From IMG/VR virus record IMGVR_UViG_3300031754_000003, positions 1 through 64,000 of that record: a DNA stretch of 64,000 bases. One strand, written 5' to 3'. Of the stretch, positions 19,287-50,569 are shown one piece after another. The notes under the pieces were generated by a model, which was not told the DNA's origin, did not search any database, and saw only the letters and a program-made list of their open reading frames with translations. Position numbers and translations under genes: made by a program. The stretch's first letter is position 1; each line of letters begins with the position of its first letter. The stretch comes from a virus.

Positions 19287-21983
19287 CTAATAGAACCGGA
19301 GCAGCCTGCGGCGAGTGATCCTAGCGTTTTCCGCAACCGCTTTGCCAAATTTCCACGCGGCTGCCCCAAGTAGAGCAGGACGCCAGCCGATCATGTTCCC
19401 AACGCCCACCTTCGGAACGCCTTGATTACCGGCAGCTCCATAGGCCCCGACAGGGAATCCAGTATTCGATCCTTTTGGAATGCTGTTCCCGTAGTAGTCA
19501 TGAAGACCGGGAGTTATGCTGAACGAGGTAGAAAGGTTGATACCGGCCCCGAACATCGTTGAGCTGGATTGAAGCTTGTATGCAGAAAGAGCGCCAGGGT
19601 TGTAGCCGTTGGTCGTGCCGCCGCCGCCTGGGCTGGTGAGCGCGGGATCGGTCGAGAAACCGCCATTCGCAGTTTCCTGACCGCTATTAGTCTTCCATGT
19701 CGAGAACGTAGTGTAATTGGTCGGCCCCGTCCAATCGGCCGAGAACGTACCACTAGCATAATAATTATTCCCGTCCAGGTGTAATCCTGCCACACTAGGC
19801 GTGCCGGTGAAAGCCACCAACTTATTGGTACCAGTCGTGTAAAAGATGTTGTTACATATACGCCCACTTACGGTATTTGATCCAGATCCACCTATACCAA
19901 GCGCTGGATTTCCGGATGCGTATACCGTGTTATTATAGATGGCTAAACCAGTAGTAGTATTGCTATCTGCCCCCACTAGTATTTCCGGGTTCCCACTAGA
20001 AGACCTTCCGTTATTCTGACTTATACAATACCTAAACGTGATCCCAGAATTAGGAGCATAGCTAGAAAATAATAGAAACCCGTTTCCAGCATTATTATGG
20101 CTATAGCAGTACTGCACGACACAGTTAATAGATGCCTCTACATCGTATCCGTCACCATCGACGGTAAAGGAACCGTTTTTATTAAGATAACTCTCACAAA
20201 ATTGTATCACTCCTCCGCTAACCGCCGCCAGGAAGATACCGACTGGACCCGATATAGAAAATCCTGCGTTTGATCCATTATCGTGTGCAATACAATACTC
20301 AATAAGACACCCACATGAATTGCCATTCGCATCTGTTAATGCAGTGCCAGCAACTTGTTCCGCGAGAATGCCACCACCTGTCCAATCTGAGCTATTCGCT
20401 GCATTACCCGTGTTGTTGTACACAGTGCATCCAGTTATATGGACATTCGTGTTCGCAAATGACCCCGGAAGCCCCTGGATCTTAATCCCGCAGGTTTCAT
20501 TCAGCGCTGACCCGCCGGTGTTATCGTGTGATATACAGCCGCTGATAGTGACACTATCAAACCCCGACGTGGTGCTATTCAACCAAATACCATTGCCGCC
20601 AAACGCGCTGACGGTAAGATTTATCAACTGGAAGAAAGACAGCTGAGAGGCAATGCTATTTGTTATAAGTACCCCATCCGTGGTACTAGTCGCTATCCCT
20701 GGTCCGGTCACTATCAAGTTCTGCAGTACCAGACCCTGGACATTTAATGCGGAAATGCCGTGAGAAGAAGTGCTACTAATCGATATGGTAGCACTACCCG
20801 TGCCGTAGGAGCCGACCGTGAATGGATTGACGTTGGACCATGGAGCCCCGGTTCCGGCATTCGCAGTACCGAGAGCCAGCGCGGTAGTGAAGGTCTGCCC
20901 TCCCTGCAAGGATAGGGTATCACTACCGTTATACGTCTTGGTGAGCGCGAAGGCGAGCGTCGCCCAAGGCCCATTGGTGCCACTGGTGAATGTCGGTGAA
21001 GTCCCATTATTGCTGTCGCTACCAGCCGAGCTATCTACGTAATAATTAACGCCGCTGACGTGTACTGGCGTGTAGGCAATGCGGATGGCGCCCTGAGCGC
21101 CATTACCGCCGGCGCCGCGTGTAGTCGCTGCGCTTCCAGACCCCGCACCGCCGCCTCCATAAAGCCCACCAGCTCCACCGTCGGACCCAGTGGCGATTCC
21201 AGCCGCACCACTACTACCGCCGCCACCCCCGGAGCCATGAGATGCATCCCATTCTGTTCCAGCCCCTCCGGCCCCTCCGGCTGAAGCAAGGCTGGTAGAG
21301 TCACCAAACCCGCCACCACCGCCGCTTCCCGCAGATCCTGGCGCGCCGGCAACGCTAGAGCTACTCGATCCCGCTCCGCCGGGGGCGCCGATTTGATTTA
21401 GGAACGAGATAGAGGCGCCGCCGTTAGCCCCAGTGTTTGTCGCGCTAGTGGCACCATTGGCACCACCTCCATTAGCCCCGCCGCCAGCGCCACCGTTCCC
21501 GGTGGTCGCACCTCCCGTTCCTCCGGGACCGCCAGGACCGGCCGCTCCACCACCACCGGGGCCAGAGGCGCCACTACCCGCAGCGCCTGCGCCGCCCGTG
21601 TAAAGTGTGTCTCCGGTATGCCCTACCCCACCAGCTCCGGGAGTAGCCCCCACGGTGCCTCCGCCGCCGCCAGCCCATACGCTCGCGCCAGCGCCTGTAG
21701 TCCCATTGAACCAGCTATCAGTACCCGCGGTGCCATCAATACCGGTAACCCCAGCAGTGCCGCCAACTCCTGGTGAGCCGATTTGGTAAGTGGCAGTTCC
21801 ACCCGGAGTAAGGGATAGATTATTTTTTTTGGCGTACCCGCCTCCCCCGCCAGAAGAGCCGCCGTTACGTCCTCCACCGCCGCCCGCGATAACCTCTATG
21901 GAGTTGTTCGAGCTATTCCAATCGACAGGAACATTCCAAGTTTGGTTGCTCCCGGTTGGCGAAGTTAAAAATATAACGGTCAT
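19287..21983 (-). CDS. Glycine-rich plus beta-helix tail spike-like protein B
   Basis: 898 residues from ATG 21983, an ATGA overlap with the upstream gene; the in-frame start at 22016 would add 11 residues. Residues 1-20 begin MTVIFLTSPTGSNQTWNVP, 27-290 are a glycine-rich domain (GGGG and GAGG runs) as in phage tail-tip adhesins, and 300-850 form a beta-helix that is clearly paralogous to protein A (DGDGYDVEASINCVVQYCY, NNTVYASGNP). C-terminal residues repeat the ARITRRRLLRFY tail. The two genes are 1 base apart. Confidence 0.6.
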   Translation of the reverse strand: MTVIFLTSPTGSNQTWNVPVDWNSSNNSIEVIAGGGGGRNGGSSGGGGGYAKKNNLSLTPGGTATYQIGSPGVGGTAGVTGIDGTAGTDSWFNGTTGAGASVWAGGGGGTVGATPGAGGVGHTGDTLYTGGAGAAGSGASGPGGGGAAGPGGPGGTGGATTGNGGAGGGANGGGANGATSATNTGANGGASISFLNQIGAPGGAGSSSSSVAGAPGSAGSGGGGGFGDSTSLASAGGAGGAGTEWDASHGSGGGGGSSGAAGIATGSDGGAGGLYGGGGAGSGSAATTRGAGGNGAQGAIRIAYTPVHVSGVNYYVDSSAGSDSNNGTSPTFTSGTNGPWATLAFALTKTYNGSDTLSLQGGQTFTTALALGTANAGTGAPWSNVNPFTVGSYGTGSATISISSTSSHGISALNVQGLVLQNLIVTGPGIATSTTDGVLITNSIASQLSFFQLINLTVSAFGGNGIWLNSTTSGFDSVTISGCISHDNTGGSALNETCGIKIQGLPGSFANTNVHITGCTVYNNTGNAANSSDWTGGGILAEQVAGTALTDANGNSCGCLIEYCIAHDNGSNAGFSISGPVGIFLAAVSGGVIQFCESYLNKNGSFTVDGDGYDVEASINCVVQYCYSHNNAGNGFLLFSSYAPNSGITFRYCISQNNGRSSSGNPEILVGADSNTTTGLAIYNNTVYASGNPALGIGGSGSNTVSGRICNNIFYTTGTNKLVAFTGTPSVAGLHLDGNNYYASGTFSADWTGPTNYTTFSTWKTNSGQETANGGFSTDPALTSPGGGGTTNGYNPGALSAYKLQSSSTMFGAGINLSTSFSITPGLHDYYGNSIPKGSNTGFPVGAYGAAGNQGVPKVGVGNMIGWRPALLGAAAWKFGKAVAENARITRRRLLRFY

Positions 21984-23854
21984 GGAGAACTCCCCAGCAC
22001 ACAGGTGGGCCGCCAAGCGAACAGACCTGACACACCATCACCGGTGTAGGAAGCAACCGGCCCAGTCTCCGCTAATCCTACCGTCATGTCAGCAGATCCG
22101 GCGCCAAGATTGGCCACGCTGATTATGGCTCGCCACCACCCGCTTCCGATATTGTTGGTGCGCTGGACTAAACCCGTAGCCGTGCCACTGGTGCCAAAGT
22201 TAGCCATGGCACCACTCGTGTCTGCAAAAGCGTAAGCGCCACCAGTCGTTCCACCAATAGATATAAGGAGAAGACGTGTCGCTCCAGTTCCTAGCGCTTT
22301 GTAATATACTGCACAGGTGTAGGTTTGGTTATTTGGTATGGGTACGCTGCCATTATCTATCTCGTGGATGCCGTTTGCCGTGTTCTCTATTAATTTAACA
22401 GCGGTCGTCCCACTGTTTGGGTCTGTCTGCCCTCCTGTTGTGGCACTGTTGGTGGCCGTCCATCCGGTAGCGAAGCTATCGCCACCAGGGACAAGATTGA
22501 TCGGCGGGCCGCTCGAATACGAGTTCCCCAATACTACCTGAGTCCCACTCACGGTGTACGGGTAGTATGTCGTAGCACCCGCTGCCGTGTCGGGCGCGGC
22601 TGCTCCGGATGATACCGTGTAGCCCGTACCCCAAGTGATTGTTCCACCGCCGCCCGCGGTGCCCTGCTGAACCTCCATGAAGCCATGCTGCCCGTCGTGC
22701 GCATATACCGGATTGGTGATCGTGCAGGGGACGCATGAAGCCGATAGCACAAAGATATGGTTTGGCGAAAACTGAAAATCTGGCGCATTTGAAGCAACTG
22801 TGGCTCCAGGCAGATCGCTGATGGCTTGTAGGTAATGCGTCTTTTGTGGCCGCTGCCAATCGAGGGACGCCTCTGTCGTCGCATTATCGTAAGCGGCCGT
22901 GGCGCTATCTGCCGGAAAACCCTGATAATCAAGAATGCAATTACTGCAAGAGATCGAGCCGCCACCGCCGTTTGTGTTATCATATGTAGTGTTATAAAGG
23001 ACCGAAACGTCTCGGATAATCACATTGGACATACTGACGTTGTTGGTATTCCAAACTATGGCCGGACTCAAAGATACTGGGCCAGAGCACCTGGCGCTAA
23101 AGATAATCTGGTTACTACCAGACACATGTATACATATAATCTGACTGTTGTTTAAAGCAGTCATTATGTCATCAGTGCCGTCCGCAAAGTAATTAGAGTT
23201 ATTATCTTCGGCGCGCGTATTGGTGAACTGGTTGTTGGTGCAACCAATATCACAATCTATTCCTTGAGGTACCGCTGGCGATTCATAATCGGCGATTTGA
23301 TTGAACCTGCAGTTCACGCCGCAATACACCCCAGGCAAAGATCCCTCTAAGGCAAAGTTTGTTAGATTGATAAATCTGTTGTTCTGTGAACAGCACGACG
23401 CAGGATGGATGTTGACTGTCGTGGCGCAGCCAAAGTTCAGGTCCAGGAATAAGTTGCCGCTCGCCGGGTGGGTCGTCAGATCTAAACAGACGGTAGAGCT
23501 ACCGCCGAAAATAGAAAACCCCCGCAAGACATTGCTATTTCCCAGAATAAAGCACGATGCGCCGGAGCAACTAACCGACGTATTCTGCGTGCCGCTAGAG
23601 CTGTCCCAGCCCGTTCCCACTTGGCTGCCAAGGATCGCACACCCCGGGTATGGGCTCAGATCAATTGCAGATCCCCCCGCGGCAAACCCACCAGGTAGAA
23701 TGAAAATGGCCTTGCCGGTGGCGCACGACGGTAGTGCCGCATTCATCGCCGCCATGTCCGTGGTCGAATTGCCTGTCGGCGTGATGTATTGATAAGGATC
23801 TGTCGCATAGGCAGCCGGTGCGAGCAGCAAGAGGCACACACAAAGGAACTTCAC
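21980..23854 (-). CDS. Secreted beta-helix protein C1 with carbohydrate-binding-like C-terminal domain
   Basis: 624 residues from GTG 23854, chosen because it follows GGGGAAC and places the signal peptide (VKFLCVCLLLLAPAAYA) at the N-terminus. Residues 20-60 hold the repeat TDMAAMNAALPSC...AIFILPGG shared with the next two genes, then a beta-helix to about 330, then the LSASCVPCTITNPVYAHDG module shared with them. The last 150 residues (WTATNSATTGGQTDPNSG) resemble a CBM-like jelly roll absent from the paralogues. Probably exported. Confidence 0.6.
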   Translation of the reverse strand: MKFLCVCLLLLAPAAYATDPYQYITPTGNSTTDMAAMNAALPSCATGKAIFILPGGFAAGGSAIDLSPYPGCAILGSQVGTGWDSSSGTQNTSVSCSGASCFILGNSNVLRGFSIFGGSSTVCLDLTTHPASGNLFLDLNFGCATTVNIHPASCCSQNNRFINLTNFALEGSLPGVYCGVNCRFNQIADYESPAVPQGIDCDIGCTNNQFTNTRAEDNNSNYFADGTDDIMTALNNSQIICIHVSGSNQIIFSARCSGPVSLSPAIVWNTNNVSMSNVIIRDVSVLYNTTYDNTNGGGGSISCSNCILDYQGFPADSATAAYDNATTEASLDWQRPQKTHYLQAISDLPGATVASNAPDFQFSPNHIFVLSASCVPCTITNPVYAHDGQHGFMEVQQGTAGGGGTITWGTGYTVSSGAAAPDTAAGATTYYPYTVSGTQVVLGNSYSSGPPINLVPGGDSFATGWTATNSATTGGQTDPNSGTTAVKLIENTANGIHEIDNGSVPIPNNQTYTCAVYYKALGTGATRLLLISIGGTTGGAYAFADTSGAMANFGTSGTATGLVQRTNNIGSGWWRAIISVANLGAGSADMTVGLAETGPVASYTGDGVSGLFAWRPTCVLGSSP

Positions 23855-23864
23855 AGCCGTTCCC

Positions 23865-25214
23865 CTAATTATGAAATGACGGGCCGAGAACGATCGCATT
23901 TAAATCGGTCCTCACCACCCAGGGGAACCAGGTAGTCTTGTTAGCAGTTGACAGCGGCTGCGCGGTGTTCTGGTAAAAAGTGCCCCATGTAACCGTTCGG
24001 CCACCAGTCGAGTCCTGCGTGAACGCAAAGTATCCTCCCGTTCCATCCGCGAGGATGGTTGGGAATGGTAATGTACAGGGGCATGCAGATGTGAGCGCGA
24101 AAGTTTTGTTATAACCATTTTGGAAATCTGGTACAGCGAATGCTGATCCAGTTAATGTTATTGGTGCATACCCAACCGGATGCGTATATCTTACATAGTC
24201 CATGTCCGCTTCAGCCTGGGTGTTGTTGTAGAGCGGGTCCGTCCCGTTCCATGTGATATCAAGGTTACAATTCGACGAACACCCACCAGAACCGGTCTCC
24301 GCTATGATACCTGATCCGCTCCCGTTGTAGCCCCCGGAACACACGATACCGACCATTTGCACCAGATTCGTGCTTCCAGGAAAATCTACACAGTATTCGT
24401 TGGTTCCCCCATCACCGGCACAACGTATTCCACCGAAATCATACGCCCCAATTTTGATACAGGTTCCCCCATCAACAGACACGTCAGTGACCGGCCCCCC
24501 CGAGCCACCTGACATATCAAGCCCAATGGCGCCATGAGGAACACCGGTGACTGTTATTCTATTCCACGCATTAGAAAAGCCGCCGCCGTAAATACCGGCC
24601 GTAGTAGGCGAGATAACCGTCAAGTCCGAAAAGTACGCGTCCGTGGCATTGTCGTGGGTATACATCCCGTATCCATTATTGAGAAACGTTACGTCCACGA
24701 CCCGCATATTTTGCGCGCAGCAACCTGATGGATTGCCGTAGTTAATCCCTGCTCCGCAATTGCGGAAGATCATATGAGTTATCACCACGCCGCCAGTTGA
24801 ACTCTCCTCGTCGGCGCAATTAGTATTACTAAGTGGTGTACTTCCATTTCCGATGATCGTAAACCCAGTGATCACAGCGCTGGTGTTTAAGCCAAAACAC
24901 GGCACAGTATTGGCCAACCCTGAGCAGTCTACGACTGTGTTCTGCGTTCCAGCTGAGCTTGCCGTGGGACTTCCTGTAACTGGCCCAGATACCGTGCATC
25001 CGGCGGGCATATTGATAGTGAGCACGATCTTGAATGTGCCCTCTCCTAGAAACACGGTCTTTGGGGAGGCGCAGCTGGCAACGGCAGTGATCAGGTTGAT
25101 CGTATCAGTGGCCGGCACGCCGGTCGGCACGATGACATTATAGGGCTCTGTCGCTCTTGCCGGGACGACCGACAGCGCTATCCACATAAGGCTAATTATG
25201 AAACGACGGACCAA
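23865..25214 (-). CDS. Secreted beta-helix protein C2 (TTG start)
   Basis: 449 residues from TTG 25214, preferred since GGGAG lies 6 bases upstream and the product then begins with a standard signal peptide (LVRRFIISLMWIALSVVPARA before TEP); another TTG at 25238 is possible. Body: VFLGEGTFKIVLTINMP, beta-helix with many Cys pairs, DPLYNNTQAEADMDYVRYTHP and a closing C-terminal domain ending IVLGPSFHN. About the same plan as gene C3, so a recent tandem duplication. Cysteine richness fits folding in the periplasm. Confidence 0.6.
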   Translation of the reverse strand: MVRRFIISLMWIALSVVPARATEPYNVIVPTGVPATDTINLITAVASCASPKTVFLGEGTFKIVLTINMPAGCTVSGPVTGSPTASSAGTQNTVVDCSGLANTVPCFGLNTSAVITGFTIIGNGSTPLSNTNCADEESSTGGVVITHMIFRNCGAGINYGNPSGCCAQNMRVVDVTFLNNGYGMYTHDNATDAYFSDLTVISPTTAGIYGGGFSNAWNRITVTGVPHGAIGLDMSGGSGGPVTDVSVDGGTCIKIGAYDFGGIRCAGDGGTNEYCVDFPGSTNLVQMVGIVCSGGYNGSGSGIIAETGSGGCSSNCNLDITWNGTDPLYNNTQAEADMDYVRYTHPVGYAPITLTGSAFAVPDFQNGYNKTFALTSACPCTLPFPTILADGTGGYFAFTQDSTGGRTVTWGTFYQNTAQPLSTANKTTWFPWVVRTDLNAIVLGPSFHN

Positions 25215-26691
25215 GATTGATACTCCCGTTATTGCCAACTGCGGTCCATGGCCACCAGGTTGTCTTGCCGGATGTGTTAAGCGGCGCCGATGTATTCACA
25301 TAGATTCCATTCCAAGTGATGGCGCTGGCTACCGATGGAGTCGGCTGGGTGAACTCAATGTATCCGGTTTGACCATCGTGCACGTAGGGCGGCGCGGGCA
25401 ATGTGCAGGGGCACGATGACGTACCCGTCAGGCTGATATTGAAGCCGTTTTTTAGATCGGGGGCAGCGAACGTGCTGCTCGTTAAAGTCACCGCCGCATA
25501 CCCGATCGGGTGCATGAAGCGCTGCCAGTCGAAGTCCGTCTCGGCCTGGGTCGATCCGTAAAGGGGATCGGTCTGGTTCCACGATACATCGAAGGTGCAG
25601 TTTGTGCATCCTCCGGTAATCCCAGCCTCATGAAAGACGCTCGAACCCGTGCCGCTATACCCGGCGCTGCACAGCATCGCCGCAACCGAGATGGCGGAGG
25701 ATGCGGCCGACTCGAAATCGAGGCAGTAGTTGTTTGCTGAAGCACTCGCGCCGGCGCAGCGCACCGCGCTGACTTGAATATTAGACGCCCCGTTAAACTG
25801 TATACATGAGCCCTGGTCAGCTATCATGTTATTGATGACGTTGCCGGTGCCGAGCATCTTGATCCCGAAGCCGGTCCCGCCTAGCGTCTGCATCGTCAAC
25901 ATCGCGAAATTTGCTTTAGAGCAACCAACGTCGCAGAATATTCCGACCGCTGGCGCAAGCATGGTTACGTTCGTCACCTGGAGGTTGGTGCAGGTGGTAT
26001 GGCACCAGACCGGCGTTCCGACAGCCGCGAAGGTCACATCCATCAGCCGGTCGTTGAGCACCGCTCCGCTCGCCGACCCCACGTTGATCCCGTAGCCACA
26101 GTTCCGCATCACCATATGGAGCAGAGTGTTGCCACCGGTGTTCGTTGCCTCGTTGTCCACGCATACCGTATTCGACCCGGCCGTACTGCCGTTGCCGAGG
26201 ATCGCGAACCCAGTCAACGTATCGCTGTTGCCAAACTTGAAACAGACAGTGGTCGTGCTAAGCCCAGAGCAGTCAACGACCGTGTTCTGGACTCCATTTG
26301 ATCCAACGTACGGTGTTCCACTAATTGAACCAACGATCGTGCAACCGTCATGCCCAGTCAAATCAATAGTGTTACTGATCGTCCACGTGCCTTCAGAGAG
26401 GAATATCGGGTTGGTATTAGTGCATGTAGGAAGCGCGGCGGTAATAGTCGCATCAGTTCTTGGTGCCGCGCCGTTAGGAAGCACATTATACGTAGTCCCC
26501 CCGCCACCTGCCCCACCGCCGCACGCGCCCGATGCAAACCCCGTCAATACGCCGCTGGTATAGGTGGCGCATGATGGCCCCGTGGTGCAATTTGAGCCGC
26601 TACACGAACTTTCCAGAGTGATTGTACCCGTAGTCTGGGCATTAGCCGTCGTGACAAACAACAAACTGAGAATGAGATAAAAGATCAGCAT
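25192..26691 (-). CDS. Secreted beta-helix protein C3
   Basis: 499 residues from ATG 26691; the frame runs further upstream but only this start gives a signal peptide (MLIFYLILSLLFVTTANA, cleavage before QTT). Residues 20-60 are a small Cys module (ITLESSCSGSNCTTGPSCATY) that also occurs as a free gene just upstream. Then the beta-helix with PIFLSEGTWTISNTI, DPLYGSTQAETDFDWQRFMHP and the terminal INLGPSFHN. Three tandem paralogues (C1-C3) suggest receptor or substrate diversification. Confidence 0.6.
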   Translation of the reverse strand: MLIFYLILSLLFVTTANAQTTGTITLESSCSGSNCTTGPSCATYTSGVLTGFASGACGGGAGGGGTTYNVLPNGAAPRTDATITAALPTCTNTNPIFLSEGTWTISNTIDLTGHDGCTIVGSISGTPYVGSNGVQNTVVDCSGLSTTTVCFKFGNSDTLTGFAILGNGSTAGSNTVCVDNEATNTGGNTLLHMVMRNCGYGINVGSASGAVLNDRLMDVTFAAVGTPVWCHTTCTNLQVTNVTMLAPAVGIFCDVGCSKANFAMLTMQTLGGTGFGIKMLGTGNVINNMIADQGSCIQFNGASNIQVSAVRCAGASASANNYCLDFESAASSAISVAAMLCSAGYSGTGSSVFHEAGITGGCTNCTFDVSWNQTDPLYGSTQAETDFDWQRFMHPIGYAAVTLTSSTFAAPDLKNGFNISLTGTSSCPCTLPAPPYVHDGQTGYIEFTQPTPSVASAITWNGIYVNTSAPLNTSGKTTWWPWTAVGNNGSINLGPSFHN

Positions 26692-26915
26692 GGACCCGGA
26701 ACGGTGTTGGTTAAGATGCCGTTCGTGTGAACCAGACACGTTGGCGCTGGGACGCAGTTGGAAGTGTCGCAGGCGCTGACCATCGTGATGTTTATGGTCA
26801 TTCCAGACGGCGCCATATTTCCCCCGCCACCATGAGGGATTCTCGCCACGGCAGAGCCGGCAAGGCCTATGGCAATCAGCGAAAGCCAGAGCCAACGAAT
26901 TAAAATTGTGCCCAT
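26685..26915 (-). CDS. Small secreted Cys protein
   Basis: 76 residues with signal peptide (MGTILIRWLWLSLIAIGLAGSAVA). The mature part ends with ITMVSACDTSNCVPAPTC and a GILTNTVPGPC tail, aligning with the N-terminal Cys module of gene C3 (four Cys in the same spacing). It looks like a detached or ancestral copy of that module. Overlaps its neighbours on both sides. Confidence 0.55.
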   Translation of the reverse strand: MGTILIRWLWLSLIAIGLAGSAVARIPHGGGGNMAPSGMTINITMVSACDTSNCVPAPTCLVHTNGILTNTVPGPC

Positions 26916-27490
26916 ACGATGCTACCGCTAACCTGGGCAGCGGAGCTAACAAGCAGGCATACATTATCAGCCAGCGTTGCCGTCCGTGCGACAATACCCT
27001 GCCCATTGCCAAGTGTTAGCCCGCCATTAGATGCTAGATTCCATCCGGTCGCTGCGGTCGCTCCTCCCGCCATGCCAGCGACGCTAGTTGCACAGGCGCT
27101 GCCAGTCCCTTCAACAAGAGCAATGTTATCAGCCGTGCTCGTGATGAGGTTGATGCTGCAAACGTACGTCTGCTTACCAGAAGTCCCCGTGATGATCTGG
27201 CCGCTTGCTGTGATGCTAATCGGTGTCGAGGTCGTGTTCCCGACCGTGGCTCCGGCACACCCGGCCGTGATCGTAATCTGTCCCGACCCATTTATCCCCA
27301 GCGCGTTAACTCCGGCCGCATCGAGGATTTGATACTGAGGGATGAAGGCTCCGGAACTGCCACCAAAGCAAATCGTTTGTGTGGTGCCTCCGGCATCTTT
27401 AAGGGTCAAAGAAGTGCCGGGGCATGCAGCTACCGCCGCACTGCTGGCAAGAATCCAGATCAGTATCGCAAGAGAGAGAGAGCGTTTCAT
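26900..27490 (-). CDS. Secreted protein with conserved YVCS...VEGTG module
   Basis: 196 residues from ATG 27490 (ATGA overlap with the upstream stop), giving signal peptide MKRSLSLAILIWILASSAAVA. The C-terminal 90 residues (QTYVCSINLITSTADNIALVEGTGSAC, GWNLASNGGLTLGNGQG, DNVCLLVSSAAQVSGSI) are a module also found in the 51087-51935 gene. I recognise this pattern from structural-region proteins of other phages. Probably a beta-sandwich; function unknown. Confidence 0.6.
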   Translation of the reverse strand: MKRSLSLAILIWILASSAAVAACPGTSLTLKDAGGTTQTICFGGSSGAFIPQYQILDAAGVNALGINGSGQITITAGCAGATVGNTTSTPISITASGQIITGTSGKQTYVCSINLITSTADNIALVEGTGSACATSVAGMAGGATAATGWNLASNGGLTLGNGQGIVARTATLADNVCLLVSSAAQVSGSIVWAQF

Positions 27491-27651
27491 CGGACCACCG
27501 CCGTTATGCTGTTGCATATGTTTGTCCAATCAAAGACCAGGTTTGTAGAGCACGACCCGCCGCCGCCGCTCGTGGGTGCCATTGTAAGATTGGCATGCCC
27601 CAAGGCAATGCCGCTGAGGATCGCAGCAACTATGAGAAGCAAGCGTATCAT
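27487..27651 (-). CDS. Very small secreted protein
   Basis: 54 residues read directly; start ATG 27651, stop overlapping the next ATG. Signal peptide MIRLLLIVAAILSGIALGHA, then NLTMAPTSGGGGSCSTNLVF. The NLT-APTS-GGG start of the mature part is shared with the 28591-29562 gene, so this may be a truncated copy of that protein's N-terminal module. Two cysteines remain. Confidence 0.5.
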   Translation of the reverse strand: MIRLLLIVAAILSGIALGHANLTMAPTSGGGGSCSTNLVFDWTNICNSITAVVR

Positions 27652-27652
27652 A

Positions 27653-28597
27653 TTACTGCCATACCTGGATTGATTTGATCACAGTCGTCTGACCGCTACC
27701 GCTTGATACGTTGATACAGTTGTGCTGCGTGAGCGCTTGATTGATCTGATCGCCGGTCGTGAAGTTGACCGTGTTCGGTGTTGTGGGATTGAGTGTTTCG
27801 GGTGTCGAGGTATTCGCAGCAAAGTAGCCAGCGAAGAAGCCGGTCCCGCCATTTTGCGCCGGGGAGACGAGTAGCGTCCCATAGACTTGACCAGCGTGGT
27901 TGCCGCCGCCGCCTTGATCGCGTTGATACGCATGATTGACCTGAGCTGGGGTATTCCAATTCGGGCTAGGTAACCAAGAGACGATGTCAGCTACCCACGA
28001 GCCATCTGCCAGTAGCGATTCAAAGGTATCTATCTCCGTCATGCTGGCCACCCCTGGTGCCGCAGCAGAATAGTATTCGGTCGGTAACATCCATGGGAAC
28101 ACCGGCCACCAACCAGTCCCCCCGGATCTACCTGATGGAGCCGATCCTATCACGGTCTTGATATAGAAAGGCCCGGTGATGGTCGTGCCTATCCACTGCC
28201 CCGCGGTGCCGTTTGTGATGCAACTCGTGAGGTCGATGCCTGGGTTGCTGGTGTCGCTGCCGGTCGTTAAGATCTGGATGCCACCGCCGGCCGCGGCTGT
28301 GTACCAGCTTCCTGGCGTTGGAGGGTCTGTCTGTCCAGCGGTGTTTCCCGAGTAGAGTCCAGGCCATCCGATCCTCCTATAGAGCAAATACCCAGGATTG
28401 CCCGTATTGCTGACGTCTACTTGGCTGATATTATTGAGACAGTAAACCTCGTGTGTGTAGCCCCACGTTACGGCCGGTGCCGGGATCGAGTCGGTACAAG
28501 CCAAGGACGGCGCCCCTCCCCCGCTGAAAACCGTCTTCTCTTGCGCGATGGACGCAATCAGGAGCAAGCAAAGCGCGAGACCGAGTACCCTTAGCAT
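27653..28597 (-). CDS. Secreted GH16-like protein, possible polysaccharide-degrading enzyme
   Basis: 314 residues from ATG 28597, with signal peptide MLRVLGLALCLLLIASIAQ. Residues 105-310 resemble the GH16 jelly roll: GPFYIKTVIG, WWPVFPWMLP, then EIDTFES with the E-x-D-x-x-E catalytic pattern (Glu188, Asp190, Glu193), and a final beta strand TTVIKSIQVWQ. GH16 enzymes cut beta-glucans, agar or carrageenan. Length and the N-terminal region are atypical, so the assignment is by motif and fold pattern. Confidence 0.5.
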   Translation of the reverse strand: MLRVLGLALCLLLIASIAQEKTVFSGGGAPSLACTDSIPAPAVTWGYTHEVYCLNNISQVDVSNTGNPGYLLYRRIGWPGLYSGNTAGQTDPPTPGSWYTAAAGGGIQILTTGSDTSNPGIDLTSCITNGTAGQWIGTTITGPFYIKTVIGSAPSGRSGGTGWWPVFPWMLPTEYYSAAAPGVASMTEIDTFESLLADGSWVADIVSWLPSPNWNTPAQVNHAYQRDQGGGGNHAGQVYGTLLVSPAQNGGTGFFAGYFAANTSTPETLNPTTPNTVNFTTGDQINQALTQHNCINVSSGSGQTTVIKSIQVWQ

Positions 28598-29562
28598 GAA
28601 CCGCGGACTGCCGTTAAATAGGCACACAGCCGATTTGTGATGCCCGTGCCGCTGGCGACGTCGCTGCCCGTGCTGCTGATCTGCGCCGCAGTCAGATGCG
28701 AGCCGAAATGTGCCGCAGCAATCTGGTATGGAGTGCCGCCGTTACCGGCGCCACCAGTGGTGGAAAGGTTGAGAATATAGACGTTATTATTCGCAACTGC
28801 CGCAGGTGAGCCGCCTCCGGTCGCTACGGAACCACCACGCCAATAAGCTGTCAGATTACCTGATCCAGACGCGCGATCACAATCAATTGCACCAAAACTA
28901 TCAGCAGTACCAAACACTGTTCCAGTAAAAGCATTGTTTAGAAAGCACTGCAAATTGCTGCCAGCTGTAAATATTACCACTCCATCAGCGGTGGTGCCGT
29001 CATAACTACCCATCGAAAAATTGACGTTACCCGTCGCCGCCGTCAGACTCCACAGCCCCATATTGGAGTTACCCAAGGCGAAGTGTCCGCCATCGGTCGT
29101 GGGGTTGCATCCCGTATCTAGATACACCGTGGTACTAGATGCTACCCCGGTATACCCGGCATTCGCGGCAAACGCGGGAGAGCCGTGGGCTGTGATAGTG
29201 CAATTACTCGATACTAGATTGAGCGCGGCAACCGCCGTGTTCGTCCCTGTCGCCGTGTCGGTGGCGAGCGTATAAAGACCGTCTAGGTTCGCAAATACGC
29301 CATCGGTCACCAGCCCGCAAATCAGCCTGTCATAGGCGCCTATATGACCGGTGCTTGGAACACTTCCATCAAGCGTCGCCGGCAACGCCCATACGCGCGC
29401 AAAGAACGTCGTCGACTGGGAGCAGCTACCGGTCGGCGCTCCGCCTCCGGGAGACGTCGGCGCGAGAGTGAGATTGGCACGTGCCGTCTCGTGTTCCCCA
29501 AGCGAGGCAAGTCCCGCAGCGACAAAGCCGACAATGACCGCGAGCAGTAAGCATCGCCCCAT
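28591..29562 (-). CDS. Tail-associated protein with N-terminal hydrophobic segment
   Basis: 323 residues. N-terminus MGRCLLLAVIVGFVAAGLASLG is a signal peptide or anchor, followed by NLTLAPTSPGGGAP. Residues 45-320 contain FFARVWALPATLDG, YDRLICGLVTDGVFANLDGLYTLA, AALNLVSS and a concanavalin/LamG-like set of beta strands, a pattern I know from phage tail-region proteins that normally lack a signal peptide. Ends with ITNRLCAYLTAVRGSC. Confidence 0.55.
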   Translation of the reverse strand: MGRCLLLAVIVGFVAAGLASLGEHETARANLTLAPTSPGGGAPTGSCSQSTTFFARVWALPATLDGSVPSTGHIGAYDRLICGLVTDGVFANLDGLYTLATDTATGTNTAVAALNLVSSNCTITAHGSPAFAANAGYTGVASSTTVYLDTGCNPTTDGGHFALGNSNMGLWSLTAATGNVNFSMGSYDGTTADGVVIFTAGSNLQCFLNNAFTGTVFGTADSFGAIDCDRASGSGNLTAYWRGGSVATGGGSPAAVANNNVYILNLSTTGGAGNGGTPYQIAAAHFGSHLTAAQISSTGSDVASGTGITNRLCAYLTAVRGSC

Positions 29563-29568
29563 TAGGGG

Positions 29569-31275
29569 TTACCTAAAGTTAAAGAAGCAGGTACCAGACC
29601 CTGTTGCAGAACTCCCGACCTGCTTCATCCCAACATACGTATTCGTCGCGATTTGCGTCGGCGACGTTGCTAACGTTAGAACCACCTCGGTTCCAGCCGC
29701 CGTAGTCATATCAAACGTGCCGCTTGACGCGATCAAGTTCGTCCCCGCATCTAAGAGCCCAGTATTGGTCTGCTCGAAGAAGCTGAGCGCCGAGGCCGAA
29801 CCTTGGGCTATGTCATTGATACAGCGGATCGAGAGAAGCACTCCTGGTGACAGGAAGACGCCAGCGCGAATCCCGTGCGTCGATAAAGACATATCCTGCC
29901 CGACCGCCCAACTCAGCGCAAATGGTTGGGTCTGTCCTAGTGGAGCGGTAAAAGCCGTGGTGCCGGAGGCGCCAGCAGTCGTCAGGATCGTCGTGAGATT
30001 GTTGGGGATGGTGATCGCCGCCCCCACTGGGCCGCCGTTGATGCCATCGGCTCCATTAGGAGTTAGGGTAGCCGTTACTCCTCGGGTCTCTAGTACCACG
30101 CAACCATTGGTGCTGAGCGTCGTTGCGACAGGCAACGTGATATTAATAGCCGCCGAGGTCAGCACGAATACTTGGCAAGCTCTCCACTCAGATTGGCTGA
30201 CTGCATGCGGCGAGGTTGGGTTAAGGGTCGTTCCTCCGTTCGTCGTACCATCGATGACCCATGCCGATGCCGCCGCATTCGTAGCCAGGCACATCGAGAA
30301 AGCAGTGTTGGGTATCTCGCCCCCGCTCAGTACTAAGAAGCCGCCGACCACCGACTGTATGTTAATCGGTAAGGCTGGTGCTGTTCCGACCGCCAGCGTT
30401 GATGTACTCGTATTTCCGATCGAAGCCGCCCCAATCCCACAAACACGATAATATGCCGCGTTTGCCGAAACCGCGGGGGACGGCGAGGCCATCACATAGA
30501 CATTGGCCGAACTCTGTGTGATCGTGCCAATGGATTGTGTCGCGGTCCCGCCACTAGAGCCATTCGACGCCGCTGTGACGCGCCCTTGCGCATCTAGTGT
30601 TATGTTTGAGTTCGTGAATGAGCCAACGCCCGGCCCCGTGTTTGGCATCGAACAGGTGCCACTGGTGGTGATCGTACCACCGCTTAGGCCAGCGCCACAC
30701 GTAATGGATGTGACCGTACCGCCGGAGCCCGGCGCTCCACCATCGATAGCGTTACCGTTAGCATCATAGACAAGTTGGTGTCCGGCGGTCTTCGTGGCAC
30801 TTGTCGCTGACTGAACCTCCGTCGCACCACTTGTCCCTGATAGCGGCAAGCTCGATGTAATTGTGCTGGCACTACCAGCGATAGGCACTTGCCCGGTGGT
30901 CATACCGCTTAGACCAACGGATGCCCAAGTCCCATCCCCCCGCCAGAATGTCGATGACGATGCCCCGGTACCAGAGTTGAGGTTCCCGACTGGAAGGTTG
31001 CCGGTAATGCCGCCAGCGCCTCCTACAGCAAGATTTGCGGGACCGATCTTGGTTTGAAGATAGGTGACTAGTTGAGAATTGGTGCCGCGCACCATCACCG
31101 TGCCGCTGGCAGGGCAATTAGTCGAATGATCCTGACAAATCCAAAAGGTATCGGCATCGGCCATCGCTGCGGCGCCGGTCGCAGCCCCAAGGTATAAGGT
31201 GCCGGTAGGCGCCTGCCCAAACGCGGACGCCGACACAACAAGCAGACAGAATGCGAGCAATATGCTCTTGCGCAT
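29569..31275 (-). CDS. Secreted tail-fibre-like protein
   Basis: 568 residues with signal peptide [20 protein letters not shown] before QAP. The stretch [20 protein letters not shown] (near residues 99-118) is a phage fibre repeat, repeated in weaker form further on ([20 protein letters not shown]). Low-complexity Thr/Ser/Gly beta repeats fill the middle. The last 130 residues form a compact domain ([17 protein letters not shown] ... FFNFR). Fibre sequence behind a Sec signal is unusual for a podovirus. Confidence 0.6.
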
Positions 31276-31279
31276 GATT

Positions 31280-32089
31280 TCAGTTCCCTAGAGCTAAGCC
31301 GTTGCCTGTTGCCAACGCTTGACCACTTCCTGTTGCAAGGGCGACGGTTCCGCCGCCACCGCCACACGATCCATTCGAAGCTGAGGTGATCTGCCCCGAT
31401 GCGTTCACCGTGATCGTTGGACAGGTGTACGTCCCGGCCGTCACCCCCGTAGCCACAATCGTTGCTGATTGTGAGCCTGATCCTGGTCCCGCTACCACAG
31501 CGCCCGTAAGTTGGGTAATCGCCGCTGAGCCGCACGAGCCCGTGGCTATTGAAGTCACCTGACCAGCAGCGTTCACCGTCGCAGTCGGACAAGTGTAACT
31601 CCCCGGCGTAACCCCAGTCGGCGTAATCGCCGTCGTTACCGAGCCTGGTCCAAGTCCTGTCACCGGCCCTGTTAAGGCGGTGATTCCTGTCGCCGGGAAA
31701 TTAACGCAGACATTAGCTAAGCAGTTGATCGTCTTGTTTGTCAGCGTTTGCTGATCATTTAGGGTAGCGAGAATATTCCCAGGAATGTAGAGCAGAGAGC
31801 TGTCCGATGGACTGGGGGCGACGGGGATGCGCAAGCCCGAGGTTAGAGGAGTGGTTGCGGCCGGTGATGTGTAGACGTAGCTTTCTAATCCCGTGCAACC
31901 CAGCCCCTGCCCAAGCCCCGGTGGGCAACCCTGCACTGGAGCTGCCAGATGAGGCTTCGCCGAGCGCGTAGTCGGCGGTTTCAGAGTAAAGCTAGGCGGA
32001 TGGCGGTGGTTTGTATCCGCAGCGACAGAAGGTAATGCTACACCAAGACCGAGAGCAAAGGCGGTCAGACGTAAGAGGAGCCCTGTCAA
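31280..32089 (-). CDS. Secreted fibre-repeat protein (TTG start, uncertain)
   Basis: 269 residues if started at TTG 32089, which gives signal peptide [24 protein letters not shown] before DTN; the frame is open to 32254 but that part overlaps the upstream gene. Contains fibre repeats [13 protein letters not shown], then twice a unit of about 45 residues ([25 protein letters not shown] and [18 protein letters not shown]-type). C-terminus glycine-rich. Same type as the 29569 gene. Confidence 0.5.
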
Positions 32090-32174
32090 AATCCAGCCCG
32101 CCCTCGCATCGTAATGGCTAGAACAGCCAATTCTTCGCAGAAGACTACCGAAATCTCGACAAAAAATGAAGGGC

Positions 32175-34796
32175 TCATTGTTGAGTGTGAGCGAGGATGC
32201 CTGATGGAGGCCCAGCGCCCCCAAGATACACATGTGGAATTCCCCACGGGACACCGGCGCCAGGCGTATATCCCGTCATCGTTCGCCCCTGTTCTTTTTG
32301 CATTCTGCGGTTCATTCTCTCCCACCAGCCTGGGTGGAGTCCTTCGAAGACATGATAATAAAAGAGGTAATCAGCCGCGCCCTTGAGATAGAAAAGGTTC
32401 TGAAACGGAATATGGCCGATGGCCCATCGCGCTAGTTCCGGCCATACATCGCCTTTTTGGGTGGTGCCAATGCTCTGTAGCCACCTAGTATAGATATCAG
32501 CCAGCGCACCCACATCGCTTGTCACGGGACCACCTAGCGTCTGCGCTTTCGATCCTCCCATACGGTTGGCTTCGCCGAAGAGGAAATCTCCAAAAATACC
32601 GAGACCGCCGCCCTGCGCCAATGCCGCTAACGCTATCTTTGCTGCATCTCCAGGGTTCTGCGGCGTGCGGGGCGGCTGCCCATAGGCGAGGTCACGCGCC
32701 GTCATCCGAAGGTAGCCACCAAGCATCGAGAGCGCCACAACAGCGCCTATGCCGGACGCGGCACGCCCCCAAGTCAGATTGTTATAGATCTCGCGACCGA
32801 TCACTTGGTGCATTGCGGCGATCGGCCATGTCTTGAACTGCATCAGGCTCGATAGCATCTCGTCCTGCCACGAGCCTGGCTTCATGCTTCCTCGGAGCAT
32901 TGCTTGCTCGCGCGGCCCAGCGGTCACAGTCGCGTGGTCAGCCGCATCCTGATAGTACATCGCGAGTTTCTCAGCGAGATCCCGACCTCCAGGTGTCGCA
33001 AGTGCCGCATGGGGAGTCAGATATTCGAGGCCGTTGGGCGCACGAAGATCGGGACCATTGGCCCTCAGCATATCCCATTCTGGCTTGTCGATTCCGTAGC
33101 GCTTGAGCACAGTCTGCAAACTTGGGTGAAGATTCGTGAATTCCTTACCCGCCTGTTGTGCAAGATTGTTCGACAGCATCTCCCGCATACCGGCCTTGGC
33201 GTGACCGAACAGGTAAGGCAATCCCGTCGCTCTCATGAAGCGATTGTGCATCGCGGCGACGTAACCGGGAACATTCCTGCCATGCGCGAACGGATCTGCA
33301 GTGTATCGGGAGACTCCGTCTCCATAAGCACCGAGCGAAGCCAGTCTGGAACGCCTCTCTACATCCGATAGGCCCTCGGGGATCATCCCCTTCACCATCT
33401 TACCGAGCGCCCCCAATGTGCCGATACCGTGTATCCGAGCCTCACTTGGGAAAGTCGCTACCAATGAACCGGCGTGCGTGCCTGCCACAAAGCCGAGGTA
33501 CACCATATCGTAGAAGGCCCGCGCGGTTGAGCCGATACGATGCCACAGATCATTCTCTGGATTGTTCGCCCGTCCGTCGAGCCGCTGCATCAGATTGTCA
33601 AGGCCTGGCCGCACGAATGGCGTGCCCTTTACCTGCGACTGGAATCTGACCACGCCATCAGGATCGCTATCGCGGAACTGCTCCTCGATCCGCCTGATGA
33701 TCAGAGAGAGATTGTTCGCTGGGTTCGTGCCGAAGAAGTGCATCAATGCCGATTGGCGTCCGCCGCGTTCTGCGGCATGGTCAATCAACGAGTACCAATT
33801 GGTGTGCGATCCATAGAGTTGCATGTACTCAGCCCACGCCGAGGCGCTGTTGGGTTGGATTACTCGGCCTTCTGATAGTCGCCGCGCCATATTGCCGCCA
33901 GCAATTTCGTAGCGTCCCGCAGCCGCGGCAGGAAGTGCGCCGCCTGGCGTCAGGCTTTCGCCAGTCCCCATATGGACTCCGGTAAGCTTCGCATTGAAGA
34001 TCGATTGCCAGAAGCGCGTCGTGGCGTCCGCATCACTCTCGCCCTCGCGTGGGACGATCGGATCAATTGGTTTGAACCTGGGCTCAATGACGCTGCGCCA
34101 TCGGCTGAATGCCTCATCGAAATCAGCGGTGGGCTCCATGCCGCGACCGCCGCGGCGCATCAGATCGCGATCGTGTGAGGTCGAAGCGATCCAATCATGA
34201 GCGTCGGCGATCCGCGCCCCCTCACTGTTCTGAGTCACACGGATCGACTCTAGCAGCGGCCGGATGATATCCGCGATGTCCTGGAATGGCTTTGCGGCGG
34301 TCGGATAATCGATCATCAGCCCACGCTTTTGGGCGATCGCGATGGCGATATCGCGGAAGTTCGCCGGATCGGCCGCGGCTTTCAGGAGGCCGGCTTTGTG
34401 AAGTTCGGCGTCAGCTACAGAGATCCACGAATTGTGGCGCGCCCGCCCGAGTGTTGTGACGTTCTCGACAGGGTTCGTCCCAGCCGTCCAATCCATGCGA
34501 GAGAGGATCTGATTGACGCTTCCGGCGATCCCGCCTGTCGTGGCTTCTGTGATCCTCGCCTGCCGCACGGTAGCGTTACGGATCGCATCGATTCGGTTAT
34601 TCGCGGCCCGCTGTTTCATGTCTCGTGCGAGTGACCACGCAGCAGTTACGATCGGATCTTCTACGCCACTGCGCCGTTGCCGCTCGCCACCCTCAGCCGT
34701 CTCTTCGAGTAACGCTCGCGCTTCTTCCTGGCCGATGGAACCGCGCGCCGCGATCCTTGCGATACAAGCAGAGAAATTCGAAATGTTGATGTCCAT
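32175..34796 (-). CDS. Large internal virion (ejection) protein
   Basis: 873 residues, mostly helical, no signal peptide. Long amphipathic helices dominate; a hydrophobic helix near residues 700-720 (GIGAVVALSMLGGYLRM) and amphipathic segments near 440-480 could form the ejection channel. Position next to the transglycosylase protein and the other ejection proteins matches the largest internal core protein of T7-like and BPP-1-like phages. No catalytic motif seen. Confidence 0.65.
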   Translation of the reverse strand: MDINISNFSACIARIAARGSIGQEEARALLEETAEGGERQRRSGVEDPIVTAAWSLARDMKQRAANNRIDAIRNATVRQARITEATTGGIAGSVNQILSRMDWTAGTNPVENVTTLGRARHNSWISVADAELHKAGLLKAAADPANFRDIAIAIAQKRGLMIDYPTAAKPFQDIADIIRPLLESIRVTQNSEGARIADAHDWIASTSHDRDLMRRGGRGMEPTADFDEAFSRWRSVIEPRFKPIDPIVPREGESDADATTRFWQSIFNAKLTGVHMGTGESLTPGGALPAAAAGRYEIAGGNMARRLSEGRVIQPNSASAWAEYMQLYGSHTNWYSLIDHAAERGGRQSALMHFFGTNPANNLSLIIRRIEEQFRDSDPDGVVRFQSQVKGTPFVRPGLDNLMQRLDGRANNPENDLWHRIGSTARAFYDMVYLGFVAGTHAGSLVATFPSEARIHGIGTLGALGKMVKGMIPEGLSDVERRSRLASLGAYGDGVSRYTADPFAHGRNVPGYVAAMHNRFMRATGLPYLFGHAKAGMREMLSNNLAQQAGKEFTNLHPSLQTVLKRYGIDKPEWDMLRANGPDLRAPNGLEYLTPHAALATPGGRDLAEKLAMYYQDAADHATVTAGPREQAMLRGSMKPGSWQDEMLSSLMQFKTWPIAAMHQVIGREIYNNLTWGRAASGIGAVVALSMLGGYLRMTARDLAYGQPPRTPQNPGDAAKIALAALAQGGGLGIFGDFLFGEANRMGGSKAQTLGGPVTSDVGALADIYTRWLQSIGTTQKGDVWPELARWAIGHIPFQNLFYLKGAADYLFYYHVFEGLHPGWWERMNRRMQKEQGRTMTGYTPGAGVPWGIPHVYLGGAGPPSGILAHTQQ

Positions 34797-45309: not shown

Positions 45310-47487
45310 CTAACGGCATGACCAAAGCGTGCTCAATCCCTGACATTCGATAAACTGGCTAAGACCAAAAGAGGTCGGGACCGCAGCGATATTCCCGCCG
45401 GTGACAAAGGCAGCACCACCGCCATTGACAAATCGCAGAACACGTCCCGGCCATATACTACCGATAGTCGAGACCGGCGTAGCGCCGGATAGAGTGACCA
45501 ATGGTGAAAATCCAGGATCGATAGAGGCCGCTGCCGTCAAAGGCAATGACCTAGTGTCAATGTTGAAATTATTGACAAATATCGCTATCGCAGCGGGGCT
45601 CGCCCCCTGTATCGTCGTGTTTGGATAATCGACAAAATGATTCCCCTGCACATTCAACTCTACATCCTTCGAATTATTCACAAAGTCTGTCAACACTGTG
45701 CTGACGGCGGTATCACAAGTGCCGCCTATCGTATTATTGAGGATGTCATGCCGGCCCATCCCGCCAGATTCTATCTCATATGCGGCGTATACACCCGGCG
45801 ATTCAAAGCTGGCCCCGCAATCGAAGCCATTTATATATCTAACGTCGACTACATTTGCCCCGACATCTACGCCGATTGCTCCAGATAATTCCATCCGGTG
45901 TCCGTCGAATGCAATGTGTCCCACATTGCCGCTGCCGGCCGTATTGAGTAGTTCCACTCCAACAGCCGGATTGAACACCGATACGCCGGGAGTACGACCA
46001 TATCTGCCGCCGATCTGCCCAATCGAGCCTGTCCAGGTGTGGTCAAAAACAAGCTGCCCAATTTGGGCGCTAGAGGAAGTGGGGTTTATATAAATCCCAT
46101 AGAAGTTGACGGTATCAAACGCGGCATGCGTTATCCAGCCGCCGTCCACGACTTGGCCGGCCCCTGGATCGACCATGAACCCGACGTCCATATATAGCGC
46201 TTCCACGTTATCGCCGATGTAAGCGCCCCCCTCGTTTAGCAATTCGAAACCGGCTGTTCCGATATTCACGGTGCCGTTGGAAGACGGTCCTGCAGCAGCC
46301 TGAGCACCGATAGCTATATTAGAGAGCATTGCATCGATAGAAACGGCCCCAGGGCCAATTCTCACCAATCGGCAATTCGGTTGCAGCGCAGGGTTGGTGA
46401 TACGCCAGTCTCGATAAGTATTCGTATTTCCGTTCTCGTCCAATGCGTGGCACGCGTTGAGAATCACAAGGCGAGTGAGAACGGTTTGCTCGGCATTGTC
46501 GACGATCGCTGTCCCAGATGTCGCATTGCTGCCGCTCGTTCCTGGCGAGACCGAGAAATTATCAAATTTACTCCCATTTGCTCCCGTATTTATGGTCAGC
46601 ATCGTAGGATTAGCCGAACAGGCCACGAAACCGCCATCGGCTGGGCCATTATCTGAGCCGCTCGCCGAGCCTTGCACAGTTATCGGGAAATTAAAAGTCA
46701 ATGCGGTTATACAATATTCGTGCGATCCAAGGATAACTTTGCCAGGATTGGAATTTAGCATTGCCGTAAAGGCCGCGTTATCATTGGTCACGCCATCGCC
46801 GACCGCTCCCCATACTCCCGGAAAGACGCCTTCCGGGGGGATATGCAATAACCAACAACCCCCGCCCGATGCCTTTACTTGGGAGCCGTTATCACCATTG
46901 CCGCCGTTCAACGAACATGTGCCAGAAGAGTAATTATAGATCGCGGCCCCGCTATCGCCTGGAATCGTGAAGCCCTCACGATAGACGACCGAGGCTCCTG
47001 CCGTGCTCTCCAAAAGGAGAGCGGCGTTATTTGGAACCGCAGGTAGCCCCGTAACCGTAGCCCCAACGCATTGCGATACGATTCCGTTGATATCGCATTG
47101 TAATGGGAGTGGCGCCGCGCCCCCGAAAGCGTTGTAAGACAACAAACCGCCGCCCAAAGCGTTAGCATCGAAACTCAGCGCATGATAGCCATTTGTGCTA
47201 TTTATCGGTGCGTCAAGTAAGCTTACGTGTGTGCCGAATGGGCCGCTCCCAGGATCATGATTGACCTGTAGCAATTCGCTAAGCCCGGCTCCGGTCTGCG
47301 TTCCTGAAGCGCTAAGTCCGCTCGCAAACCCGCTATCCACGACGGCAGCGAAGCCCTGCCCTGGGCCAAGCTGGTACATCGGCACATGACCGCCGATCGC
47401 TGGTCCGGCTTGCAGCACGCTCTGCGCCCATGCCGGGGTATGGAGCAAAACTCCGACCAGTAGAGCCAAGGGCAATCTGATCTTCAT
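45310..47487 (-). CDS. Secreted fibre/beta-helix protein within the tail module
   Basis: 725 residues from ATG 47487; the upstream extension lacks coding character. Signal peptide MKIRLPLALLVGVLLHTPAWA before QSV. Next comes HVPMYQLGPGQGFAAVVDSG and the segment around GLSELLQVNHDPG...YHALSFDANALGGGLLSYN, a conserved N-terminal domain I know from phage proteins in this gene position. Residues 230-700 form a beta-helix (VWGAVGDGVTNDNAAFTAML, then NDNTN-type turns), as in tail spikes. A spike gene with a Sec signal placed among virion genes is notable. Confidence 0.65.
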   Translation of the reverse strand: MKIRLPLALLVGVLLHTPAWAQSVLQAGPAIGGHVPMYQLGPGQGFAAVVDSGFASGLSASGTQTGAGLSELLQVNHDPGSGPFGTHVSLLDAPINSTNGYHALSFDANALGGGLLSYNAFGGAAPLPLQCDINGIVSQCVGATVTGLPAVPNNAALLLESTAGASVVYREGFTIPGDSGAAIYNYSSGTCSLNGGNGDNGSQVKASGGGCWLLHIPPEGVFPGVWGAVGDGVTNDNAAFTAMLNSNPGKVILGSHEYCITALTFNFPITVQGSASGSDNGPADGGFVACSANPTMLTINTGANGSKFDNFSVSPGTSGSNATSGTAIVDNAEQTVLTRLVILNACHALDENGNTNTYRDWRITNPALQPNCRLVRIGPGAVSIDAMLSNIAIGAQAAAGPSSNGTVNIGTAGFELLNEGGAYIGDNVEALYMDVGFMVDPGAGQVVDGGWITHAAFDTVNFYGIYINPTSSSAQIGQLVFDHTWTGSIGQIGGRYGRTPGVSVFNPAVGVELLNTAGSGNVGHIAFDGHRMELSGAIGVDVGANVVDVRYINGFDCGASFESPGVYAAYEIESGGMGRHDILNNTIGGTCDTAVSTVLTDFVNNSKDVELNVQGNHFVDYPNTTIQGASPAAIAIFVNNFNIDTRSLPLTAAASIDPGFSPLVTLSGATPVSTIGSIWPGRVLRFVNGGGAAFVTGGNIAAVPTSFGLSQFIECQGLSTLWSCR

Positions 47488-47491
47488 CTGC

Positions 47492-49309: not shown

Positions 49310-49328
49310 CGCTGGTTTCCGAGCTTGA

Positions 49329-49649: not shown

Positions 49650-49655
49650 AGCAGA

Positions 49656-50549: not shown

Positions 50550-50569
50550 AGTAGGACTCCAAAGAAGGT

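Follow-up and report, generated by a model that had tools for sequence, protein, structure and literature searches.

Morphogenesis of tailed phages is taught as a wholly cytoplasmic process. T7 gp17-type fibres and Sf6/HK620-type tailspikes are made and mounted in the cytoplasm and carry no signal, in which they differ from the proteins described here, and fibres joining finished particles outside cells are known in vitro, from T4 fibres and P22 tailspikes. In its record, gp49 of Burkholderia phage Bcep781 is noted as 'possible tail fiber; possible signal peptide domain', and the report on Lys44, the endolysin of phage fOg44, describes a late protein that is exported by Sec and cleaved (PMC6116005). 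In addition, B. diazoefficiens USDA 122 is described in another report as spontaneously releasing siphophage particles (PMC10127595). Individual cases have thus been annotated (gp49) and secreted endolysins are known; a literature search, with subscription journals mostly outside its coverage, returned no paper that treats exported fibres as a class. Here, a podovirus-type stretch of 64,000 bases from a soil phage (the window; positions 1–64000 of the 69,825-base IMG/VR record IMGVR_UViG_3300031754_000003) was analyzed, in which a run of genes in the tail-fibre slot opens with Sec-type signal peptides. Genes are named by their first coordinate. Cysteine parity, the link between a cysteine pair and the signal, and conservation of the signals in relatives strongly support the reading that the window proteins are exported and belong to a tailed phage.

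Signal peptides in the window

Signals were called using our own rule (n-, h- and c-regions and the -3,-1 rule) and not SignalP, with a score of at least 6 as the threshold. This rule called 17 of the 70 chosen window genes vs 4 of 236 other open reading frames (ORFs) of at least 60 aa (Fisher 7e-9), and 119 of 7000 shuffled N-termini. As a control, 50 kb of E. coli K-12 with annotated starts was used, and the calls covered 0/31 cytoplasmic, 4/4 periplasmic or outer-membrane, and 2/11 inner-membrane proteins. Among the 17 called genes, 51932 is probably false and 464–661 is a holin-like membrane protein. The signal of 51087, missed by the rule because of a TTG start without a Shine-Dalgarno sequence, was accepted by hand. 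By hand, 15 Sec/signal peptidase I (SPI) proteins and one lipoprotein were accepted in the window. Beyond it, the record contributed one lipoprotein, three Sec-type genes, and one twin-arginine-like gene, and 19 of 85 ORF-genes were called in the whole record. Residue +1 was Gln in 9 of the 15 SPI proteins (by eye).

A sequence-only reading had described ten consecutive signal genes; the signals stood, and the count came to nine, from 31280–32254 to 21980–23899, all with an n/h/c-region signal. It had also named 45310, 50061, 50570, 51087, 2067, and 2563, all six of which open with such a signal. Its two lipoproteins were reduced to one clear case in the window (995–1633), as 26900 is ambiguous (VAA before C) and the second clear one lies outside (record 65070–65402).

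Cysteine parity

Cysteine content averaged 2.8% of the mature part (16 proteins) vs 1.3% in 43 other genes (p=1.6e-4). Content alone was dropped as a weak argument, and parity was used in its place, because the signal-less genes 16923 and 19287 are Cys-rich as well (17 and 11–12 Cys). After predicted cleavage, the number of Cys was even in 15/15 window SPI proteins (14/14 without the ambiguous 26900), compared with 16/29 other window genes with at least two Cys (p 0.0015). In other phages, it was even in 58/73 signal genes vs 579/972 signal-less genes (p 7e-4); kinship among the loci was only partly removed, and all p values of the parity tests overstate how independent the cases are. When the signal itself held an odd number of Cys, the mature part was even in 15 of 16 cases (p 0.003 against a background of 0.596). 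Thus, the selected unit seems to be the protein minus its signal, which points to cleavage. Parity failed in 15 of the 73 signal genes of other phages and in 2 of 21 in a smaller set from which six truncated or signal-less fragments had been dropped; one of the latter two, L238, would be even if cleaved at an earlier site (by eye).

The Cys-pair motif

The motif G-[TA]-G-L-[ST]-G-G-x-I-T is common in phage fibres, and in 29569 it is flanked by Cys on both sides. A prospective IMG/VR scan for the motif with the first Cys returned 33 loci, all 33 with the second Cys and 30 with a called signal; of the other three, two end at a contig edge and L222 has an evident signal. One uniform procedure was then applied to all collected contexts, which were collapsed to distinct ones with a visible N-terminus, contig-edge contexts being dropped. 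The first Cys was present in 27 contexts, the second in 26 of them, and a signal in 23 (rule at least 6) or 25 (at least 5.5). In the 116 contexts without the first Cys, the second was found in 1 and a signal in 8 (at least 6) or 11 (at least 5.5; p<1e-15). L247, one of the 27, was rejected by eye as a fibre, being a FliI-like ATPase and a chance match; without it, the second Cys is present in 26/26 and a signal in 23–26 of 26, from the strict rule to inspection by eye. In GTDB genome contigs, the Cys pattern gave six matches, including three fibres (a Hyphomicrobiales metagenome-assembled genome, Devosia, and Nevskia), 3/3 with a signal. A smaller earlier set had the pair in 2 of 7 signal fibres and lacked it in 5, and L020 has no Cys at all. 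For a second fibre motif, the Cys-pair form was seen in 31280 and, by eye, in its G007 homolog, too few for a test; the pattern used for this form gave 0 IMG/VR matches.

These results bear on whether the N-termini work as signals. Some starts are weak (31280, 51087, and 23865, all TTG), two of them being uncertain (31280, TTG 32089; 23865, TTG 25214), and the calls are rule-based only, as would be expected if the set consisted of membrane anchors, of starts that are hydrophobic by chance, or of misassigned start codons. This is very improbable given the even mature Cys count after removal of odd-Cys signals (15/16), the Cys-pair/signal link, and the signals kept by divergent homologs. Actual export, cleavage, and disulfide formation are, as judged from sequence, highly probable.

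Gene order and relatives

The late run lies on the minus strand and includes terminase (58518), a portal-type adaptor (56333), the major head protein (53305), tail proteins (44033, 40046), an acetyltransferase-like internal virion protein (39606), and a transglycosylase-like protein (36148). The gene just before the exported run, also on the minus strand, encodes the phrog_684 internal virion protein (32175..34796), which carries no signal and served as the anchor for finding relatives. In Tr60_Ab31 and HTVC024P, known phages with this gene order, the tail-fibre gene follows phrog_684 immediately; a coiled-coil gene does so in Vibrio 1.182.O, and in vB_EcoM_APEC the annotated fibre comes three genes later. 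In the window, this position of a tail fibre or tailspike is occupied by the nine consecutive signal-bearing genes (21980–32254). The description of the exported genes as tail-like holds by position, by the matches of 31280 and 45310, and by the motif of 29569; the seven other block genes (21980, 23865, 25192, 26685, 26900, 27653, and 28591) gave no PHROG or Pfam match.

Relatives were collected by an IMG/VR search with an alignment of phrog_684 proteins, and the best 80 of 581 loci were used, 17 of which had no downstream gene. Signals were called in 0/356 genes upstream of the anchor vs 14/205 downstream. Scans of IMG/VR with one protein at a time (25192, 32175, or the N-terminus of 45310) found no relatives, and a profile search of genome contigs with alignment A2 gave no match, and thus no host was assigned. 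Six relatives were examined whole, with 4 (G002), 10 (G003), 14 (G004), 10 (G005), 2 (G007), and 5 (G001) signal calls. G003 has a run of seven signal genes, and G004 has five in a row, one scoring just 5.6, plus one more in the fibre slot. Homologs of 45310, 50061, 50570, 51087/26900, and 31280 in the clade all bear signals; for homologs of 50570 and 51087 that at first lacked one, it was found further down the frame (by eye). The only homolog that read as signal-less is the G001 match of 29569; conversely, 19287 has no signal, but a G003 protein that it matches does. The signal trait belongs to the lineage but varies. Export of so many fibre-type proteins was rightly considered unusual, yet it is not unique to this phage.

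Two further features of the relatives were recorded. The record of L011 (G002, 45967–50952) matches the major head protein of the window at three separate places, with 71, 37, and 33% identity, which may be copies of the capsid gene, and L066 (14565–15614) has a signal-less GH16 enzyme (PF00722, 3.6e-5) near its fibre slot.

Gene position also bears on lysogenic conversion, in which prophage-expressed genes would change the envelope of the host or the way it interacts with plants or competitors. Among the carriers, several (L244, L245, L246, and OP596612) are prophages or lie in bacterial contigs, and the genes with a CAP domain, DUF4082, or a Tat signal have the look of cargo. This explanation is unlikely, since most exported genes lie inside or adjoin the capsid-tail run on the same strand and the domains are of phage-fibre types.

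Attachment domains and possible mounting on virions

A hidden Markov model of the T7-type fibre N-terminal domain found 74 ORFs in the sampled loci. In 72 of them, no signal precedes the domain, which generally begins right after the first residue. In L012 and L235, predicted signal cleavage falls exactly at the first residue of the domain. L012 and L014, which lacks a signal, both belong to the clade of the window; they share 50% identity across 340 columns, with residue 22 of L012 aligned to residue 2 of L014. This exact placing and identity indicate that an ordinary virion fibre gained or lost a signal before an intact attachment domain. PHROG matches over the L012 domain belong to tail protein, tail spike, and tail fiber families; the name T7-type is our presumption from these matches, as the Pfam T7 domain was matched only weakly and by an L013 protein.

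The domain VLQxGxxxxGHxPMY, present in 45310, directly follows a signal in 7/7 IMG/VR loci with a visible N-terminus, the eighth being cut at AQSS. For the AEQSS-type fibre N-domain family, as in Bradyrhizobium phage ppBdUSDA122-1 (OP596612), 13 of 14 full-length matches were called and the 14th (L222) was accepted by eye. This N-domain holds 2 or 0 Cys, never 1, and its homologs in named phages were only the phage itself and two weak matches. In OP596612, the sole annotated tail fibre is the signal-bearing one, and the neighbouring gene also has a signal. Among the functions that had been offered for the exported proteins, joining virions in the periplasm or after lysis is the best supported, through the L012/L235 domain and the fibre of OP596612, a siphophage seen as particles; surface coating, a block to superinfection, and free depolymerase activity are less probable. 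Together with gene position, the attachment domains and OP596612 make it somewhat probable that at least some of the proteins are mounted on virions.

The main rival is that the proteins are free effectors, exported and disulfide-bonded, never on virions, and soluble or surface-bound in the infected cell, where they might act as lyases clearing exopolysaccharide or as receptor blockers against superinfection or progeny re-adsorption to debris. The large number of proteins called in the record, the weak lyase/epimerase/tailspike-type matches of 23865 (below), and the GH16 enzyme near the same slot in L066 suit such a role, and the signal-less fibre-like 16923 and 19287 could serve the virion. 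It is harder to reconcile with the T7-type attachment domain kept at the mature N-terminus of two signal proteins, the signal on the only annotated fibre of OP596612, which has a Collar domain, and the placing of the genes within the late structural run. Free effectors are therefore the less probable reading, although the window itself does not decide, as its block lacks a known attachment domain and 16923 and 19287 are signal-less fibre candidates.

Individual proteins with export signals

The nine block genes lie on the minus strand. The first after phrog_684, 31280..32089, encodes an exported fibre-like protein with 8 mature Cys, a match to PHROG 38058 tail fiber (E 4.5e-6), and a fibre repeat that occurs twice and contains a Cys pair (GSYTC..GSCG). 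The fibre-like 29569..31275 has a signal ending in AFG before Q and 10 mature Cys. It is followed by 28591..29562, with signal MGRCLLLAVIVGFVAAGLASLGEHETARA before N and 8 mature Cys plus 1 in the signal, and by 27653..28597, with signal MLRVLGLALCLLLIASIA before Q and 4 mature Cys; EIDTFE in the latter, seen by eye, is a putative GH16-like motif. The protein of 26900..27490 (MKRSLSLAILIWILASSAAVAA before C, SPI or lipoprotein) is a paralog of 51087. The small Cys-rich protein of 26685..26915 (76 aa; signal ending in LAGSAVA before R; 4 mature Cys) is similar to the start of the mature protein encoded next, by 25192..26691, as if a small Cys domain were common to both. The gene 25192 encodes a beta-rich spike/lyase-like protein with signal MLIFYLILSLLFVTTANA before Q and 22 mature Cys. 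The beta-helix-like 23865..25214 (signal ending in SVVPARA before T; 16 mature Cys) is a paralog of 25192 (43%), and the likewise beta-helix-like 21980..23899 (signal ending in LLLLAPAAYA before T; 20 mature Cys) is a paralog of 23865 (32%).

For mature 23865, an AlphaFold2 model from three sequences was beta-rich, with a predicted local distance difference test score of 61 (low confidence). Foldseek with this model gave weak matches to alginate epimerase/lyase, to the Sf6, HK620, and Dettilon tailspikes, and to pectate-lyase-type phage proteins, which are taken as a lead only. A tblastn search of 23865 in phages gave no match.

Also on the minus strand, the exported fibre 45310..47487 has signal MKIRLPLALLVGVLLHTPAWA before Q, directly followed by its VLQ-type domain, and 12 mature Cys. 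The small proteins 50061..50549 (signal ending in LAGPAFA before Q; homologs in G004 and G005) and 50570..51076 (signal ending in LPIAAEA before Q; homolog in G007) have 2 mature Cys each, and 51087..51935 (signal ending in SVQSA before Q; homologs in G003 and G004) has 6, all these homologs bearing signals. The plus strand encodes a Cys-rich protein (2067..2546; signal MRYLAVPFLFLPFGPALA before Q; 8 mature Cys), a protein with DUF4082 (2563..3405; signal ending in SHSTLA before Q; 2 mature Cys), and the lipoprotein 995..1633 (MIRRIAIPLMLLSS before C). Outside the window, L002:3006–4127 (record 66906–68027) encodes 373 aa with a twin-arginine-like signal, MTITRRRLITGAVAVGAIPPTAALA before Q, and adjoins the lipoprotein and the three Sec-type genes. 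A CAP-domain protein (PF00188, 3929–4609) has an internal, signal-looking hydrophobic stretch behind a charged 60-residue leader.

Among signal-less genes, two paralogous beta-helix/glycine-rich fibre-like genes on the minus strand (16923–19286 and 19287–22016) are candidate ordinary fibres; their C-termini share a basic ITRRRLL ending. A GH25 lysozyme (33–479; PF01183, 1.8e-12; no signal call) and, directly after it, the 65 aa holin-like membrane protein (464–661) are probable lysis genes. Neither the nine block proteins nor 45310 gave a lysozyme or amidase match in PHROG or Pfam, in contrast to secreted or signal-arrest-release endolysins with their muralytic domain.

Proposed model and its implications

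The explanation favoured as a whole, by a modest degree, is that Sec-exported fibres and spikes acquire disulfides in the periplasm and are mounted at lysis. Late-expressed fibre, spike, and polysaccharide-lyase-type proteins would be exported by the host Sec machinery, and signal peptidase I would remove the signal. The mature proteins would then fold and form disulfides in the periplasm. At lysis, with the inner-membrane barrier gone, the fibres would bind virions via ordinary fibre attachment domains. The phage might thereby gain oxidative folding of very stable Cys-rich beta-structures, or keep sticky or lytic proteins from the cytoplasm, although this is speculation.

Several points weigh against the model of fibres mounted at lysis. 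PHROG and Pfam found a known attachment domain in none of the nine block genes, the large signal-less genes 16923 and 19287 could be the real virion fibres, and the signal genes 2067, 2563, and 65070–68027 lie far from the fibre slot. The closest capsid relative, G002 (71%), has only 4 calls and the record of L066 only 2; the lineage can thus do without the set. Bcep781 has further fibre candidates, gp31 and gp65, whose records note no signal, and of four Bradyrhizobium phages examined, the three other than OP596612, which come from the same paper (PMC10127595), have fibre candidates without signals. Moreover, dilution after lysis would make mounting inefficient.

More broadly, and tentatively, some tailed phages may form a class whose virions are finished outside the cytoplasm, with fibres and spikes mounted only once holin and endolysin open the cell; its members come mainly from environmental contigs, and those hosts that are known are proteobacterial. 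If so, a periplasmic stage would be added to tailed-phage assembly, host Sec and Dsb proteins would be phage assembly factors, and possible failures of such fibres when they are produced recombinantly in a reducing cytoplasm would have an explanation. The combination of a signal with an even Cys number would then offer a sequence rule for receptor-binding proteins in unannotated soil phages, and the culturable phage of B. diazoefficiens USDA 122 makes the model directly testable.

Comparison with known phages

The proteins described here resemble T7 gp17-type fibres and Sf6/HK620-type tailspikes in their position after an internal virion protein, in their predicted beta-rich architecture, and, in L012/L235, in the attachment domain. 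With Lys44 they share probable Sec export; unlike them, Lys44 is a muralytic lysis enzyme and not a fibre. Bcep781 gp49, which has a counterpart in Bcep43, is homologous to the protein of 45310 (28% over 610 columns) and has signal MKKNKHVLFGVLLTACGLPAFA before Q, which is also readable as a lipobox (LTA before C). Unlike the window, Bcep781 has a single such gene beside other fibre candidates and no run of exported genes. Phage ppBdUSDA122-1 differs in being a siphophage with two exported fibre-type genes, compared with fifteen exported proteins in the window; its fibre WAX24263 combines a signal, the Cys-pair motif, 18 mature Cys, and a Collar domain.

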